Assembly (NCBI GenBank): GCA_024644015.1
Contig: JAHELV010000021.1
Location: 1 to 62,333 of the forward strand
Length of the DNA: 62,333 bases
DNA from: Nitriliruptorales bacterium
GTDB lineage: Bacteria; Actinomycetota; Nitriliruptoria; Euzebyales; JAHELV01
Reading direction: 5' to 3'
Below are positions 8,771-29,198 of the stretch, in pieces; the stretch's first letter is position 1, and the number at the start of each line of letters is the position of its first letter. Both the position numbers and the translations under genes were made by a program. Under the pieces are notes generated by a model, which saw nothing but the letters and a program-made list of their open reading frames with translations, did no database searches and was not told the DNA's origin.

Positions 8771-10573
8771 TCATCTCGAGGCGCGCGGCGTGCCCAGGTG
8801 CGAGGCGACGAAGTCGAGCGACAGTGCTTGCTGGCGGACGTTCTCGGCGATCGCCATCGAGCCATGGCCAGCGTCGAAGACGTCGTACACGTGCGGTATC
8901 CCACACCGCTCGAGGGCGGCGACGTAGTTGTCGACTTGTCGTCGTGGGCACCGCGTGTCGTTGGCGCCGGTGATGATCAGAACTGGCACGCGCACCCTGC
9001 CGACGTAGGTGATCGGCGAGCGCTCGCGGTACAACTCCGGGCACTCGGCGGGCGTGCAACCGAAGAGGCCGTGGTCGAACTCGCGCAGCGCCGGCGACTC
9101 GTCTTCGTACGCGGTCAGGTAGTCCGCGACCGGCACCGTGGCGACCGCGACGGACCAGGCGTCGGGTTGTGTTCCGATGCCCTGCAACGTCAGATAGCCG
9201 CCCCACGACGCGCCCGCCAGGACGATCCGCTCGGGATCGGCGACGCCCGAGTCGACGAGATGGTCGCGACCCGCGCGCAGGTCGACGAGCTCAGGCCGAC
9301 CGGGGTCACCCTCGAGCGTGTCCTGCCACCGTTTGCCGTAGCCGGTCGAACCGCGGTAGTTGGGACTCAGCACTGCGAACCCGTGATCGACCCAGGCCTG
9401 CACGAACGGATCGAACGCGTCGCCGACCTGAGCGTGAGGTCCACCGTGGACATCGACGACCAGTGGATACGGGGCGTCGCCGGCAGGCAGCGTGAGGAAG
9501 GCGTGCACCGCGCTGTCGTCGGCGCTGGGATAACGGATCGATTCTGCCCTGGTTCCGGCGGGCGCAGGGCGCCCCGGTGCTGAGAGCAGCGTCGTGTCGG
9601 TGGCGTCGCGGCGCTCGCGTACCGTGGGTGCATCAGCGGTCGACTCGAAGACGTACCACAGGCTGCCGTCTGGTCTGACGCAGGCAGCGCTGACGGTTCC
9701 CGCACCCACCTCGACAGGCTCGGCGGTGCCGGTCCTCAGCTGGTATCGCAGCAGCGACCGCTGCCCCTGGTGTTCGTGTGCCAGCAGCAGGGCCGAGCCG
9801 TCGGGCCACCAGTCCTCCACGTCGATCTCGCCCGGTAGATCGACGTCGCACGCGATCCGCTCGCCGGAGCGCAGGTCCCAGACCTCGGCCTGTCGGCGTC
9901 CGCTGCAATCGGCGACCAGAGCGAGGCGGGCGTCGCCGCGAACTGGCGACCAGCCCGAAGGGTGGATCGTGTTGCCCAGGCCGTCGTAGACGGCGCCGAC
10001 CAGCGCGCCGTCGGCGTCGACGACCTGCACGGTGGGATGCAGGGTGTCGCCGTGCTCGGTGTGTGACAGTGCGAGCAGGTCTGCATCTCTGCTGAGGCCG
10101 CCCACCGACACGGGCCGCTCGCGCACGATGATGGTCCGTGCGTGTCCGTCCTCGACGATGGCGACTGAGAACCCGGTCGAATCGGCCCGGCCAATGGCAA
10201 GACGTTCGGCGCGCAATGACAGCCCCGCCGCCCACCCGGGCTCCAGCTCGACCGCTACCGGTGTGGCGCCGCCGCCGTCGAACGATGTGACGACGAACCT
10301 GCCGACCTCGCTGCCGGCGTCGTCGTCGAACCAGACCACCCCGGTGCCGTCCGGCAGCGGAACTCCCCAGCTCACGCCGGTCGGCTTGTCGGTCAGCGGA
10401 GTGTGTCGTTGTGTCTGCAGATCCCATGACCACAGCTGGCGCACGCCGGACGCGTTGGTGGTGTACGACGCCCGATGCGGAGCGTCTTGTGCCCACGACG
10501 GCAGTCCGAACCGGACCGCATGGAACCGTTGCTGCCAGAGCGGCATCACCGCTGGCGTCGCGGCAACGGTCAT
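8771..10573 (-). CDS. S9 family peptidase (prolyl oligopeptidase / acylaminoacyl peptidase type)
   Basis: A 600-residue serine peptidase with the usual two parts: an N-terminal beta-propeller-like region (about 30-330, repeated WSPVRGDARLALVAD-like blades) and a C-terminal alpha/beta hydrolase. The catalytic triad is visible as Ser456 in GASWGG, Asp539 in GANDTR and His570 in DAGHGSM. The oxyanion segment VHGGPHAQ lies ahead of the nucleophile. There is no signal peptide, so it is predicted cytoplasmic and would cleave short peptides or acylated N-termini. It is followed on the same strand, upstream, by the PEBP-like gene with a 43-bp gap; the two may share a transcript. Confidence 0.92.
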   Translation of the reverse strand: MTVAATPAVMPLWQQRFHAVRFGLPSWAQDAPHRASYTTNASGVRQLWSWDLQTQRHTPLTDKPTGVSWGVPLPDGTGVVWFDDDAGSEVGRFVVTSFDGGGATPVAVELEPGWAAGLSLRAERLAIGRADSTGFSVAIVEDGHARTIIVRERPVSVGGLSRDADLLALSHTEHGDTLHPTVQVVDADGALVGAVYDGLGNTIHPSGWSPVRGDARLALVADCSGRRQAEVWDLRSGERIACDVDLPGEIDVEDWWPDGSALLLAHEHQGQRSLLRYQLRTGTAEPVEVGAGTVSAACVRPDGSLWYVFESTADAPTVRERRDATDTTLLSAPGRPAPAGTRAESIRYPSADDSAVHAFLTLPAGDAPYPLVVDVHGGPHAQVGDAFDPFVQAWVDHGFAVLSPNYRGSTGYGKRWQDTLEGDPGRPELVDLRAGRDHLVDSGVADPERIVLAGASWGGYLTLQGIGTQPDAWSVAVATVPVADYLTAYEDESPALREFDHGLFGCTPAECPELYRERSPITYVGRVRVPVLIITGANDTRCPRRQVDNYVAALERCGIPHVYDVFDAGHGSMAIAENVRQQALSLDFVASHLGTPRASR

Positions 10574-23823: not shown

Positions 23824-24564
23824 ATGATGAACACGCAGGTTGGTGGCTCGCGAACGCTTGGCCGCGGTCTCGAAGTGCTCAAGGCACTCAGTCAGGCGCC
23901 CGACGGCGCCACCGTCGCCGGGCTGTCGAAGAGGACGGGACTGGACCGCGCGGTCCTGTATCGGCTGCTCGACACTCTGTGCGCGGAAGGCTTCGCGGTC
24001 CGCGACTCCGACACCCGGAAGTTCCACCTCGGTGTGTCACTGATCGAACTGGGCATCCGTGCGACGCGGCAACTCGACGTCCGCCGCTATGCCCTGCCCG
24101 GCATGCGCTCGTTGATGGAGCAGTCGCACGAGGCTGTGTGCCTGGCCGTGCAGGATCGGCGCGACGTCGTGGTGGTCGACCGCGTGGAGCCGCGCGGCCT
24201 GAGCGTCCGGGTCCACTATCCGGTCGGTACCCGCCACCCACTCACGTCCGGTGCGCACGGCCGCGCGCTGCTGTCGCAGCTCGAGCCGGAGGCGCGGCGC
24301 GACCTCGGCGCGTCACCGGAGCTGTCGGCCGAGCTCGAGACCAGCCGCACCCGTGGCTACGCGCTGTCCATCGATGAGATCGACCGTGGCGTCGTCGGCG
24401 TCGCAGCGCCGATCGTTGGCAGACGTGGGAAGCCCGTGGCCAGCATCGGGATCGTCGCCCCCTCGTTGCGGCTGCGCGACCCCGCCAAGCTCGGTCCGCG
24501 CGTGCGTGCGCTCGCCATGGAGGTGTCGCGACGGCTCGTGCACCCTCCGGTGCCGGTCGGCTGA
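23824..24564 (+). CDS. IclR-family transcriptional regulator
   Basis: A 246-residue regulator. The N-terminal winged helix-turn-helix (about 10-75: TLGRGLEVLKALSQAPDGAT, then VAGLSKRTGLDRAVLYRLLDTL) is followed by an effector-binding GAF-like domain (85-240) with the family's HEAVCLAVQ, HYPVGTRHPLTSGAHGRALL and GYALSIDEIDRGVVGVAAPI blocks. IclR proteins often control catabolism of aromatic or carboxylic acids and act as repressors or activators. No catabolic gene is adjacent. Two in-frame ATGs (23824, 23827) are possible starts. Only the upstream palindromes suggest a target, and the regulator may act on itself and possibly on clpP. Confidence 0.88.
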   Translation: MMNTQVGGSRTLGRGLEVLKALSQAPDGATVAGLSKRTGLDRAVLYRLLDTLCAEGFAVRDSDTRKFHLGVSLIELGIRATRQLDVRRYALPGMRSLMEQSHEAVCLAVQDRRDVVVVDRVEPRGLSVRVHYPVGTRHPLTSGAHGRALLSQLEPEARRDLGASPELSAELETSRTRGYALSIDEIDRGVVGVAAPIVGRRGKPVASIGIVAPSLRLRDPAKLGPRVRALAMEVSRRLVHPPVPVG

Positions 24565-24660: not shown

Positions 24661-26574
24661 TCAGATGAGCGCTTGTCCGAGCATGATGCCGACCGCGGCG
24701 CCCGCAGCGATCAGCAGCAGGACCACGAGCCAACGCAGCACGCTGTTGCCGGTCCCCTCCGTCTCAGGGCTCGCCAGACCTGCGACCGCTGCCTGGTTCT
24801 CGCCTGGTGGCCGGGCGGGGGGCGGCGGCGTCGGTCGCCGCGCCGCCGGAAGCGTCGGCGCGGTCATGTTCGACACATGGTCGGCCCCGGCATCCGGTGC
24901 ATCGGATGCGGAGTCCGTCCCCCGGCCGAACAGGTCGTCGACGCGTGGGTCGCTGTCGTCGCGCTGGATCGGCGTCTTCACGGTGGCATCGGCGTCGTGC
25001 ACCGCAGGCCGGTCGACGTGCGCACCCCGATCCTGATGACCCGTGAACGCCTGGGGCGCGGTGTCGAGCTCCCGGCCCTGCTGTGGGGTGGGCCCGGCCG
25101 GCGCGGGCCGCCGCAGGGGTGACTCGGCCTCGGTATCGCGCTCCGAGAGCGGACGCTGTCGTTCCGGTCCGGTCAGCGGCGACGGTGCGGGTCCGCCACC
25201 GGGGTCGAACGCCAACGGGTTCGCGGCCGGCTGGGGCGCGCGTGATGACCCGACGTCGTCACCGGGCCGGGGCCGCACACCACCGGGTGGCGCCGTGACG
25301 TCTTGACCGGCGTCACGTCCCGGACTCGCGGTCTCGGGGTCGTCGTCGGGCCGCTTCGGAGAAAACGCGTCCCGGCCGCGTGCGGTGGCCAGCTTGGTGC
25401 GGCCAGCGCGCTGCAACGGCATGCGCACGAGTTCCTCGCTGGCCTCGTCGTCCGGTTCCGCCTCGTGCGGCGCCAAGGCTGGCGCGGTGTTGCCGAATGC
25501 CGGCGGCGCGGCACCGGCAGCGGCACCGGCCAACGCAGGTGGGATGGCCGGTGCACGCAGCGCGGTCGGCTGTTCGTAGTCGCTGCCCTGAGGGCCACCG
25601 TCGTCAGGCATCCGCGCCGCCGGCGCCGCGCTGGCCTCCTGTTGGAGCGCGCTGATCGGCTGATGGTCGTTGTCTGCGGCCGGCGTCGCGGGCAGCGTCA
25701 TGTCCAGCGACGAACGCGGTGCGTCATGGCCCCGGGCGCCGCGATCGAGGTTGGTCGAGGCGATGCGCAGGTCAGAGTCCAGGCGCGATGCGCGTGTCTC
25801 CTGCGTGTCACGGGACTGACCGTTGCCGAGCACCCATGCCAAGACCCGATGCCCGAGGTCAGGGGTAGGTGGCAGCGGCTCGAAGCGCCGTCGCGCGCGA
25901 CGCAGGACGCCGGCGAGCCGACCGCACGGCGTCGGCTCCGCAGCGGTGCCAGGTACCGTCGCCGCCTCGTGCGGTGGCAGCAGTCCGAAGATCCAGTTGG
26001 CCAGCGAGACGCCACTGGAGCACATCTCAGCCGCGTGACGCTCCTCGTCGGTGAGTGGGCTGGCCAGCAGCAGCAACGCGTGCTGGAGCGCCTCGCCGGC
26101 ATTCGCGTCGTCCTGCTCCGTCGTCCGGATGCCCTGATCGTGGGCACGGACGAGCGCTGCCTGCTGCGCGGGGGTCAGCTCGGCGATCATCCGCTCGAGC
26201 GGATCGTTGCTGTCCTGCCGCTCGGCGTCGACGCCTGAGGTCCACTCGGCCAGCGAGGGCGACGGCGCGTGGAGGTCGCGTTGACGCAGGTAGCCGGTGC
26301 CGAGGGCGAAGCAGCGTGCGCGCACCCAGCCCTCGAGGGCCTCGTCGACCGGTGGCTCCTGCCACAACTCGTTGAAGACCGAGCGCAGCAGCGCCTCGAT
26401 CTCGACCGGCGAGGCGAGCAACCTGCGCGCGCACGCGTGCGCAGCGGTGATCGTCCGGTGGTACGCCTCGGCGAGCGCGATCGCGTCGCCATCGGCGACC
26501 GCTCGCACGAGCCTGGCGTCGTCGGTGCCGCGGTGATCGGTGAGGTCGGTGCGTAGCACGTGGTCCTCCAACAT
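24661..26574 (-). CDS. ECF-sigma-like protein with long linker and C-terminal membrane anchor
   Basis: A 637-residue protein of unusual build. Residues 18-105 resemble sigma region 2 (DARLVRAVADGDAIALAEAY, a dAEd-like SPVEIEALLRSVFNELW, then RARCFALGTGYLRQRD). Residues 125-175 resemble a degenerate region 4 (LTPAQQAALVRAHDQGIRTTE...LQHALLLLASPL). Next comes about 400 residues of low-complexity Pro/Ala/Asp/Arg-rich linker. A single hydrophobic helix (RWLVVLLLIAAGAAVGIMLG) lies in the last 28 residues, so the protein is tail-anchored with the sigma-like part in the cytoplasm. ECF factors with fused membrane regions are known; whether this one binds RNA polymerase is unproven. No separate anti-sigma gene is adjacent. 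Confidence 0.65.
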   Translation of the reverse strand: MLEDHVLRTDLTDHRGTDDARLVRAVADGDAIALAEAYHRTITAAHACARRLLASPVEIEALLRSVFNELWQEPPVDEALEGWVRARCFALGTGYLRQRDLHAPSPSLAEWTSGVDAERQDSNDPLERMIAELTPAQQAALVRAHDQGIRTTEQDDANAGEALQHALLLLASPLTDEERHAAEMCSSGVSLANWIFGLLPPHEAATVPGTAAEPTPCGRLAGVLRRARRRFEPLPPTPDLGHRVLAWVLGNGQSRDTQETRASRLDSDLRIASTNLDRGARGHDAPRSSLDMTLPATPAADNDHQPISALQQEASAAPAARMPDDGGPQGSDYEQPTALRAPAIPPALAGAAAGAAPPAFGNTAPALAPHEAEPDDEASEELVRMPLQRAGRTKLATARGRDAFSPKRPDDDPETASPGRDAGQDVTAPPGGVRPRPGDDVGSSRAPQPAANPLAFDPGGGPAPSPLTGPERQRPLSERDTEAESPLRRPAPAGPTPQQGRELDTAPQAFTGHQDRGAHVDRPAVHDADATVKTPIQRDDSDPRVDDLFGRGTDSASDAPDAGADHVSNMTAPTLPAARRPTPPPPARPPGENQAAVAGLASPETEGTGNSVLRWLVVLLLIAAGAAVGIMLGQALI

Positions 26575-26595
26575 TGACCGCTAGGACAAATGCAT

Positions 26596-26630
26596 CCGTG
26601 TGCGCGTGAAGACTACCCAAACGCACACGG
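26596..26630 (-). terminator. Hairpin terminator after the DUF427 gene
   Basis: CCGTGTGCG at 26596-26604 pairs with CGCACACGG at 26622-26630 (9 bp, 17-nt loop). It lies 7 bp past the DUF427 stop and before the start of the sigma-like gene on the same strand, with a short T-containing run following in the minus direction. It should separate the two transcripts. Confidence 0.45.
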
Positions 26631-26637
26631 GCGATGT

Positions 26638-27141
26638 TCACCAGCCTACGGTTCCGAATTCGCCCTTGAATGGTCCGACGACATCGTCGGTTATCCAGCC
26701 TCCATAGAAGCCTCCAGCCTGGCTGCGCACGTGTTGATCGTCAACCAGGCAACGGTCCATACGGGCCGGGTAGACACTGAAGTGGTCTGCGAGTGCCACA
26801 TACCCGTCCGACGGCTGCGGGTACGTCCATGCGGCGTCTGCGGCCAGCACCCGTCCGTCGTGATCGACGATGTCGTGGTACGCCGCCTGTCCCTTGTACT
26901 CGCACCAGCTCGCTCGACCGGTGGGCGCGAGCGCGGCGTCGCGCAGTTCCGCGATCGGCATGTACCAGCAGGGTGGATGGCTCGTCTCCAGCACCCGCAC
27001 AGCGGCCGTCGTGTCGATGATCGTCCGGCCGCCACAGACGATGCGGACTCGGCGGTCGTCAGCCTCGATCCGCGGTGGGCGCGGGTAGTCCCATACGGAC
27101 TCCTGACCAGGGCCCGCCGGAATTGGTTTCGGTCTGAACAT
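26638..27141 (-). CDS. DUF427 domain protein
   Basis: A 167-residue protein matching the DUF427 family almost end to end: SVWDYPRPPRIE, GGRTIIDTTAAVRVLETSHPP, WYMPIAELRDAAL, SWCEYKGQAAYHDIV, AAWTYPQPSDGY, YPARMDRCLVD and FYGGWITDDVVGPFKG. The family forms a small beta-rich fold of unknown biochemical role and is common in actinobacteria. GGGAG 5 nt upstream supports ATG 27141. The open frame continues upstream to 27264 but that part reads as noncoding and would overlap the ftsH start. It diverges from ftsH across 113 bp. Confidence 0.88.
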   Translation of the reverse strand: MFRPKPIPAGPGQESVWDYPRPPRIEADDRRVRIVCGGRTIIDTTAAVRVLETSHPPCWYMPIAELRDAALAPTGRASWCEYKGQAAYHDIVDHDGRVLAADAAWTYPQPSDGYVALADHFSVYPARMDRCLVDDQHVRSQAGGFYGGWITDDVVGPFKGEFGTVGW

Positions 27142-27254
27142 GGCCTCTCCCGGCGTGGTGGCCCGTCCACGTGTGTGGGACTCCTTCGCGGGCACTGGTG
27201 GGTTGCGGCAAGTGAGGGTAGGAATGGTGCAGTCGGAAATGTAGCGAGGCACAG

Positions 27255-29198
27255 GTGAATCCAACCAGTCGCAACCGTTTGCTGATCGGCCTGCTCATCG
27301 CTCTGGGGCTGCTGTGGCTGCTCAATCCGATCGCGTCGGGCGAACAGTTGACCTATGACGAGTTTCTCGCCGCGGTCGAGGACGGCAGGGTCGACTCGGT
27401 CACCTTCACCGGGCAGTCGATCGATGGCACTTTCTCCGACGCCGGGACAGACGACAACACCGGACCCGGCGGATTCACGTCGACGCTGCCGCCGGCGACC
27501 GTGATCGGCCAGAACGGCATCGAGGACTTCCTGACGAACAACGACGTCCAGATCGATGCGCGTGTCGAGGGCGAGAGCATCGCGTCGCTGCTTCTGCTGT
27601 TCGGCTTGCCGATCCTGCTGTTCGTCGGGTTCTTCTGGTACCTCAACCGTCAGGCACGCGGGCAGATGGGCCCGCTGGCGCGGGTCGGCAAGTCCACCGC
27701 GCGGTTGTGGAAGCCGCACGAGCCCACCACGCGCTTCGACGACATCGCCGGCTACCGGGAGGTCAAGCAGGAGATCAAAGAGGTCGTCGACTTCCTGCGT
27801 GAGCCGGACCGGTTCAGGCGCGCCGGCGCCGAGGTGCCCAAGGGGATGCTGCTGATCGGTCCACCGGGCACCGGCAAGACGCTGTTGGCCAAGGCGACGG
27901 CCGGCGAGGCGGGCGTACCGTTCATCTCGGTGACCGGGTCGGACTTCATGGAGATGTTCGTCGGCGTCGGAGCCAGTCGCGTGCGCGACCTGTTCAAGAC
28001 CGCACGCGAGAACGCGCCGTCGATCATCTTCATCGACGAGCTGGACTCGATCGGACGCAAGCGCGGCGCTGGCCTCGGCGGCGGCCATGACGAACGCGAG
28101 CAGACGCTGAACCAGCTGCTGGGCGAGATCGATGGCTTCGAAGGCTCCGAGGGCGTCGTCATCATGGCAGCGACCAATCGCCCGGACGTGCTGGATCCGG
28201 CGCTGCAGCGTCCTGGTCGGTTCGACCGCCAGATCGTCGTTCCGTTGCCGACGCTGGAGGAGCGGGAGCAGATCCTGGAGGTGCACACCAAGGGCAAGCC
28301 GATGGCCGAGAACGTCGACCTCGCCGTGCTGGCCCGCGGCACGCCCGGCATGGCCGGTGCGGATCTGAAGAACCTGATAAACGAGGCCGCGCTCATAGCC
28401 GTGCGCGACGGCTCGGACGACATCCGGATGCGTGACATCGAGCAGGCCAGGGAGCGGCACACCATCGGTCGGGAGCGCTCCAGCCTGCGGCTCGACGAGA
28501 AGGAGAAGCTGGCGGTCGCCTACCACGAGGGCGGGCATGCGCTGGCGGCCTTCCTCGACGATGAGGCCGATCCCGTCTACAAGGTGACGGTGCTGCCGAC
28601 CGGCATGGCGCTCGGTGTCACCCAGCAGCTGCCCATCGACGAGCGTCACATCTACATGCTGAGCTACCTCGAGGCCAAGATCAAGGTCATGCTCGGTGGC
28701 CGCGCCGCAGAGATGGTTGTCCTTGGTCAGCCGACGACCGGTGGGCAGCACGATCTGGTGCAGGCCACCAAGCTGGCCCGCGCGATCGTACGCGAGTACG
28801 GCATGAGCGAGGCGCTCGGCCCGATCGGCTACGGCAGCCAGCAGCAGGTGTTCCTCGGTGAGGAGCTGACCCGCGGGCACGAGTACTCCGAGCAGACCGC
28901 CGAGGTGATCGACCGGGAGGTCCAGCGCATCCTCACATCCGCCCTCGGCGAGCTTGTAGAGCAGTTCGCCGACCTGCGCCCCGGCCTTGATGCGATCGCG
29001 GACGAGCTCGTGGAGCGGGAGTCGCTGACCGGCGAGGAGGTCCTGCGGGCGGCCCTGTCCGGGCTCGACGCGCGCCAACAGGCGGTGCTGGCCGGCGCGC
29101 AGACGGTGGCGACCACGCCGCCGATGGTGCGCGGCGCCGGCGACGACGGTGGCGGCGGGGCGACGCGCCAGCCAGAGACCGCCGGCTCCGGACGCTGA
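27255..29198 (+). CDS. ftsH: ATP-dependent zinc metalloprotease FtsH
   Basis: A 647-residue membrane AAA protease that extracts and degrades membrane and short-lived proteins. Two transmembrane helices (7-24 and about 110-128) flank a small extracytoplasmic domain. The AAA module has Walker A GPPGTGKT near 202-209, Walker [12 protein letters not shown] and an SRH with PGRFDRQI. The protease has the zinc site HEGGH near 424-428 and the third ligand region in [12 protein letters not shown]. The C-terminus ends in a Gly/Ala-rich tail. Translation starts at GTG 27255 with GAGG 6-7 nt upstream. The NpdG gene follows after 6 bp. Confidence 0.97.

Follow-up and report, generated by a model that had tools for sequence, protein, structure and literature searches.

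A gene on the minus strand of a 62,333-nucleotide contig from a Nitriliruptorales bacterium (JAHELV010000021.1; this whole stretch is referred to below as the window) encodes a member of a protein family of the order Euzebyales in which a degenerate, SigK-like sigma factor appears to be fused to an anti-sigma domain and carried, through a long linker, on a C-terminal membrane helix. We favor, at a probability of about one half, the reading that this degenerate sigma/anti-sigma fusion works through protein contacts as a sigma mimic, paired with itself and tethered to the membrane. The homology, the domain order, the motif losses, the membrane helix and the selection on the protein rest directly on sequence. 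Sigma/anti-sigma fusions and sigma mimics are each already known in a few cases; in the Euzebyales family, a single membrane protein appears to unite fusion and mimicry, and the family's conservation extends over an order with cultured members (Euzebya). With this family one could ask by what route a sigma factor that no longer recognizes promoters turns into a regulator, and whether the two cysteines left over from a zinc anti-sigma site can still sense redox.

Gene, distribution and selection

The open frame (24661-26574, minus strand) agrees exactly with the bounds given in a preliminary description of this DNA and comprises 637 aa when counted from its ATG. The first five residues of that longer form found no coding-start support among the homologues. 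GTG 26559 is the likely start, giving a protein of 632 aa, because in the homologue alignment the conserved domain begins at the codon immediately after it and because a GGAGG lies upstream (Table 1). Domain positions are counted from the leucine that follows this GTG, as in the family alignment, A1. From N- to C-terminus, the protein consists of a conserved domain (residues 1-245), about 360 low-complexity residues and a membrane helix. As a single query it had no match in Pfam or the PDB, and the family alignment was required.

Table 1 Features of the gene and of its conserved neighbors in the window
Feature	Position	Strand	Description	Basis
Whole gene	24661..26559	-	GTG start 26559, stop 24661-24663, 632 aa	Open frame and homologue domain start
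Shine-Dalgarno GGAGG	26565..26569	-	5 nt before GTG	Read from sequence
Sigma-2-like helices	26278..26526	-	Domain residues 11-93	hhalign to ECF and SigK-like profiles; NCBIfam sigma models; 4nqw SigK
Sigma-4-like region, collapsed helix-turn-helix	26059..26205	-	Domain residues 118-166	Helix-turn-helix length and K/R counts
Class-I anti-sigma-like domain	25828..26031	-	Domain residues 176-243	hhalign to RskA-type anti-sigma domain; NF052375 in family
Cys179 of domain	26020..26022	-	Position of first zinc ligand / RsrA Cys11	
Cys211 of domain	25924..25926	-	Position of last zinc ligand / RsrA Cys44	
Pro/Ala/Asp low-complexity linker	24748..25821	-	Probably disordered	Composition and length variation
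Linker motif PRSSLD	25702..25719	-	Pattern P(x)S[AVS]L[DE]	Counts in text
Linker motif PRVDDLF	24928..24948	-	Pattern [LMPV]R[LVF]xD[ILVF]	Counts in text
C-terminal membrane helix with short tail	24676..24747	-		Hydropathy; homologue position
DUF427 gene	26638..27264	-	Upstream, conserved neighbor; matched in 8/20 loci	PF04248, 2.5e-26
ftsH	27255..29198	+	Divergent neighbor; matched in 19/20 loci	TIGR01241
IclR-type regulator	23824..24564	+	Convergent neighbor; matched in 14/20 loci	PF01614 and PF09339

A genome search found homologues in most genomes of Euzebyales, including Euzebya pacifica (class Nitriliruptoria), with E-values below 1e-160 within the genus and mostly between 1e-19 and 1e-60 for the other families of the order; a few Euzebyales genomes yielded only fragments, weak matches or none. 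When the search was run within the class Nitriliruptoria, full-length members scored 290-367 bits, against at most 40 bits for ordinary sigmas, and no family member was seen in the 36 class genomes outside Euzebyales. The other genomes sampled from the phylum also gave no member, the best score outside the order being at most 57 bits and covering the sigma part only. One genome carries two copies on separate contigs; these may come from two strains, since its contamination estimate is 5%. Two further copies are disrupted, by an in-frame TGA and a frame change, which reflect either assembly error or decay.

Within the genus, simple NG86 counts put dN/dS at about 0.16-0.22 in the sigma part and at 0.007-0.04 in the anti-sigma part; this purifying selection shows that the protein is functional. 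The gene is missing from at least one related genus, where 25 bases separate the flanking frames and the block of genes around the site (aldehyde dehydrogenase, Fpg, ClpP, IclR, DUF427, FtsH, NpdG) is intact; this clean absence shows that the gene is dispensable there. Because the block is unchanged where the gene is absent, a functional tie to ftsH or clpP was not relied on. In another genome, a frame resembling L-aspartate oxidase, as judged by eye, lies between ftsH and iclR, at the expected site of the gene. An open reading frame at 26590-27258 on the plus strand was rejected as a gene, DUF427 being encoded on the opposite strand.

The sigma-like half, the anti-sigma domain and the anchor

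Using hhalign, A1 matched the ECF sigmas of the same genome (probability 97%, score 74.8) and the SigK-like sigmas of the class (score 74), with scores of 73.9-74.8 overall, while 60 column shuffles scored at most 19.2. Judged by these profile comparisons, the ECF-sigma similarity over sigma-2 and sigma-4 is real, and the preliminary description was right to read the N-terminus as a divergent sigma region 2. The NCBIfam sigma model PRK05602 was matched by 21 of the 22 members, and the best PDB match was SigK of M. tuberculosis (4nqw, E 2e-4). In the tree, the family is monophyletic (support 1.0) and sister to the SigK-like sigmas (0.949). Homologues were also checked for a lack of sigma similarity and were found to keep that similarity.

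The same half has lost much of what characterizes a functional ECF sigma. Family members keep 11-18 of 44 sigma-consensus positions, compared with 20-43 in true sigmas. The core-binding Gln of region 2.2, present in 94-95% of sigmas, is found in 18% of the family and is replaced by Arg in the window protein. The basic helix-turn-helix of region 4 is no longer intact either: the stretch is 22-23 aa long instead of 29, with six residues missing in all 22 members, and holds 0-3 K/R instead of 4-7, in line with the degenerate region 4 that had been proposed. These losses are consistent over the whole family and do not represent the decay of one copy. It should be noted that motif loss is not proof that the sigma half has ceased to bind polymerase. 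AlphaFold models built from 1-2 input sequences were of low quality, with a pLDDT of 49 for the domain and of 69 for the first 100 aa; the low-pLDDT model of the first 100 aa has four helices about where the sigma-2 helices are expected. Foldseek gave no significant match with either model, and both models were given no weight on either side.

In class-I anti-sigma factors, published structures and co-evolution place helix 1 on sigma-4 and helix 4 on the face of sigma-2 that binds core polymerase, and types without zinc exist, such as RskA (PMC7406223). The tail of the family domain aligned with the RskA-type anti-sigma domain from helix 1 through helix 4 in order (hhalign score 23.1 versus a shuffle maximum of 17.4; probability 30%), and A1 aligned end to end with concatenated SigK+RskA over 225 columns, with a probability of 95%. 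In addition, the NCBIfam model NF052375 ('anti-sigma factor') was matched by 7 of 20 tails (best 4e-6). The tail of the window protein itself did not match this model; for this reason the anti-sigma assignment, which comes from sequence profiles, can be called good at the level of the family and moderate for the window protein by itself. In Nitriliruptoria, the nearest true sigmas adjoin separate RskA-like anti-sigma genes, which together with the internal anti-sigma domain points to a SigK/RskA-type fusion. As first described, no separate anti-sigma gene adjoins the gene in the window. The suggestion that sigma and anti-sigma are combined therefore stands in so far as both lie in one chain, but the anti-sigma domain itself, which occupies residues ~176-243 and separates the sigma part from the linker, had been overlooked.

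The remaining two elements, the long Pro/Ala/Asp linker and the C-terminal membrane helix, were found as originally described. The linker spans about 360 residues (~246-603 in domain numbering); of 354 residues counted, 33% are Pro or Ala, 53 are acidic and 36 are basic. Homologue linkers range from 101 to 354 aa and are likewise rich in Pro, Ala and acidic residues. The terminal hydrophobic segment of the window protein (mean KD 2.4) is followed by a tail of 6 residues. A C-terminal membrane helix recurs in all 18 complete rows of the full-length alignment, that is, those neither cut by a contig end nor frame-broken. In these 18 rows at most 12 residues follow the helix, and no extracytoplasmic sensor is present there. 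Basic residues precede the membrane helix in many members, which suggests that the N-terminus lies inside.

Possible modes of action

In the reading we prefer, a SigK-like (ECF19-type) sigma would have become joined, in Euzebyales, to its RskA-type partner's anti-sigma domain; the outside sensor domain would have disappeared and the membrane anchor would have stayed, placed behind a long flexible linker. The sigma half would no longer read promoters or bind core polymerase normally. The anti-sigma half would fold back onto it, so that the head, we propose, would form a permanently linked sigma/anti-sigma pair tethered at the inner face of the membrane. This head would most likely act through protein-protein contact: following the logic of PhyR, it would mimic a sigma and compete for sigma or anti-sigma partners or hold them, and the cysteine pair possibly sets its state. 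We infer the fold-back, the loss of activity, the mimicry, and the switch and its partners; the protein could equally be worded as a membrane-tethered sigma mimic or closed switch instead of a promoter-reading sigma. Since the promoter-reading parts are lost, it is probably a membrane-held signalling decoy and not a working sigma. The membrane-held decoy that the preliminary description offered as a possibility is close to this reading.

The two cysteines of the anti-sigma domain are both present in 20 of the 22 members and both absent from the other two, which the tree does not place as sisters; the spacing of the cysteines in the family is 30-32 residues. In RsrA, the trigger disulfide joins Cys11 and Cys44, 33 apart (PMC4960319). 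We therefore hypothesize a redox role for Cys179 and Cys211, whose disulfide would open or close the head and set its binding, a switch that could be combined with the preferred reading. This is possible but somewhat unlikely, as the other two zinc ligands are gone (of the motif Hx3Cx2C, the His and the first Cys are missing and only the last Cys is kept), two members manage without the pair, and the cytoplasm is normally reducing.

The same fusion might instead be a latent sigma, its divergent head still working once released by proteolysis (RIP, FtsH or Clp). The architecture fits, ftsH and clpP are neighbors of the gene, and for known fused proteins such activation is either established or has been proposed (PMC8999054, PMC5826349). 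Nevertheless, we consider such a release unlikely. Every member has a shortened helix-turn-helix depleted of basic residues, and most lack the core-binding Gln, which weakens the earlier idea that proteolysis frees a working sigma; the short C-terminal tail and the missing extracytoplasmic sensor leave little for a site-1 protease to cut, and the ftsH-clpP block is found unaltered even without the gene.

Another reading places the function in the linker and anchor, which would serve a role outside transcription, with the sigma/anti-sigma fold exapted as a structural or adaptor head. Two short linker motifs occur above chance: P(x)S[AVS]L[DE], carried by 10 of 16 linkers against a mean of 0.15 after shuffling, and [LMPV]R[LVF]xD[ILVF], carried by 8 of 16 against a shuffled mean of 0.015; the significance of both is overstated because they were picked after looking. 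Moreover, the most conserved stretches include anti-sigma helix 4 and RRGRRRxEGLPPTPD, while the sigma half is degenerate. We regard this exaptation as doubtful, since a linked pair with both halves under purifying selection is explained more simply by a sigma-related role.

A composite version of our preferred reading, in which a membrane-tethered SigK/RskA-fusion mimic would switch partners by redox through its RsrA-like cysteine pair and dock a further partner through the linker motifs, seems quite improbable as a whole. Finally, that a helical protein rich in alanine should resemble sigma factors by chance or composition is very improbable and was rejected by the column shuffles: Pfam gives no match for the window protein by itself and helical, Ala-rich proteins do give false hits, but column shuffles of the same composition stayed at or below 19 against 74, a single NCBIfam sigma model matched 21 of 22 members, and the domain order agrees end to end with SigK+RskA.

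Comparison with known systems

The family shares with the redox-sensing, zinc-binding anti-sigma factor RsrA the cysteine pair at the Cys11 and Cys44 positions; the equivalents of His37 and Cys41 are absent, and there is thus no complete zinc site. PhyR, whose ECF-like sigma-2/sigma-4 domain serves as a sigma mimic (PMC4598750), resembles by description the reading proposed for the Euzebyales family, in which a sigma-like domain would act as a mimic instead of a sigma. However, PhyR is an alphaproteobacterial protein that has a receiver domain and binds NepR, whereas in the Euzebyales family an anti-sigma domain accompanies the sigma-like part and a membrane helix anchors the chain. Pfam found no PhyR-type receiver domain in the window protein.

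The preliminary description contrasted the protein with classic ECF pairs, which keep sigma and anti-sigma apart, but the one-chain form is known: ECF48, ECF52, ECF53 and IutY (ECF243) are fusions of sigma, anti-sigma and membrane helix (PMC8999054, PMC5826349). Activation by proteolysis was shown for IutY and proposed for ECF52 (PMC8999054, PMC5826349). As in ECF52 and ECF53, the Euzebyales family carries sigma, anti-sigma and transmembrane segment in one chain, and it differs from all these fusions in its incomplete zinc motif and degenerate sigma part. SCO4117 (ECF52) has its Pro-rich region, together with a carbohydrate-binding domain, after the membrane helix; in the Euzebyales family the long linker comes before the helix, almost nothing comes after, and such a carbohydrate-binding region is absent. 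A 529-aa frame elsewhere in the genome studied here contains a second ECF sigma (G000:C26, sigma match 9152-9355). The sigma is followed by an anti-sigma-like stretch with CxxC and by a hydrophobic segment, and the whole resembles an ECF52-type fusion; Pfam confirms the sigma regions only.

By sequence, the closest system is SigK/RskA (ECF19; 4nqw, PRK09646). SigK and RskA are two chains, whereas the Euzebyales family is one; it has no RskA_C outside domain, and in the window protein a linker of about 360 residues precedes the membrane helix and the sigma motifs are lost. Both share the order sigma-2, sigma-4, anti-sigma helices 1-4 and membrane helix, and the nearest intact relatives of the family within the class are such SigK/RskA pairs.
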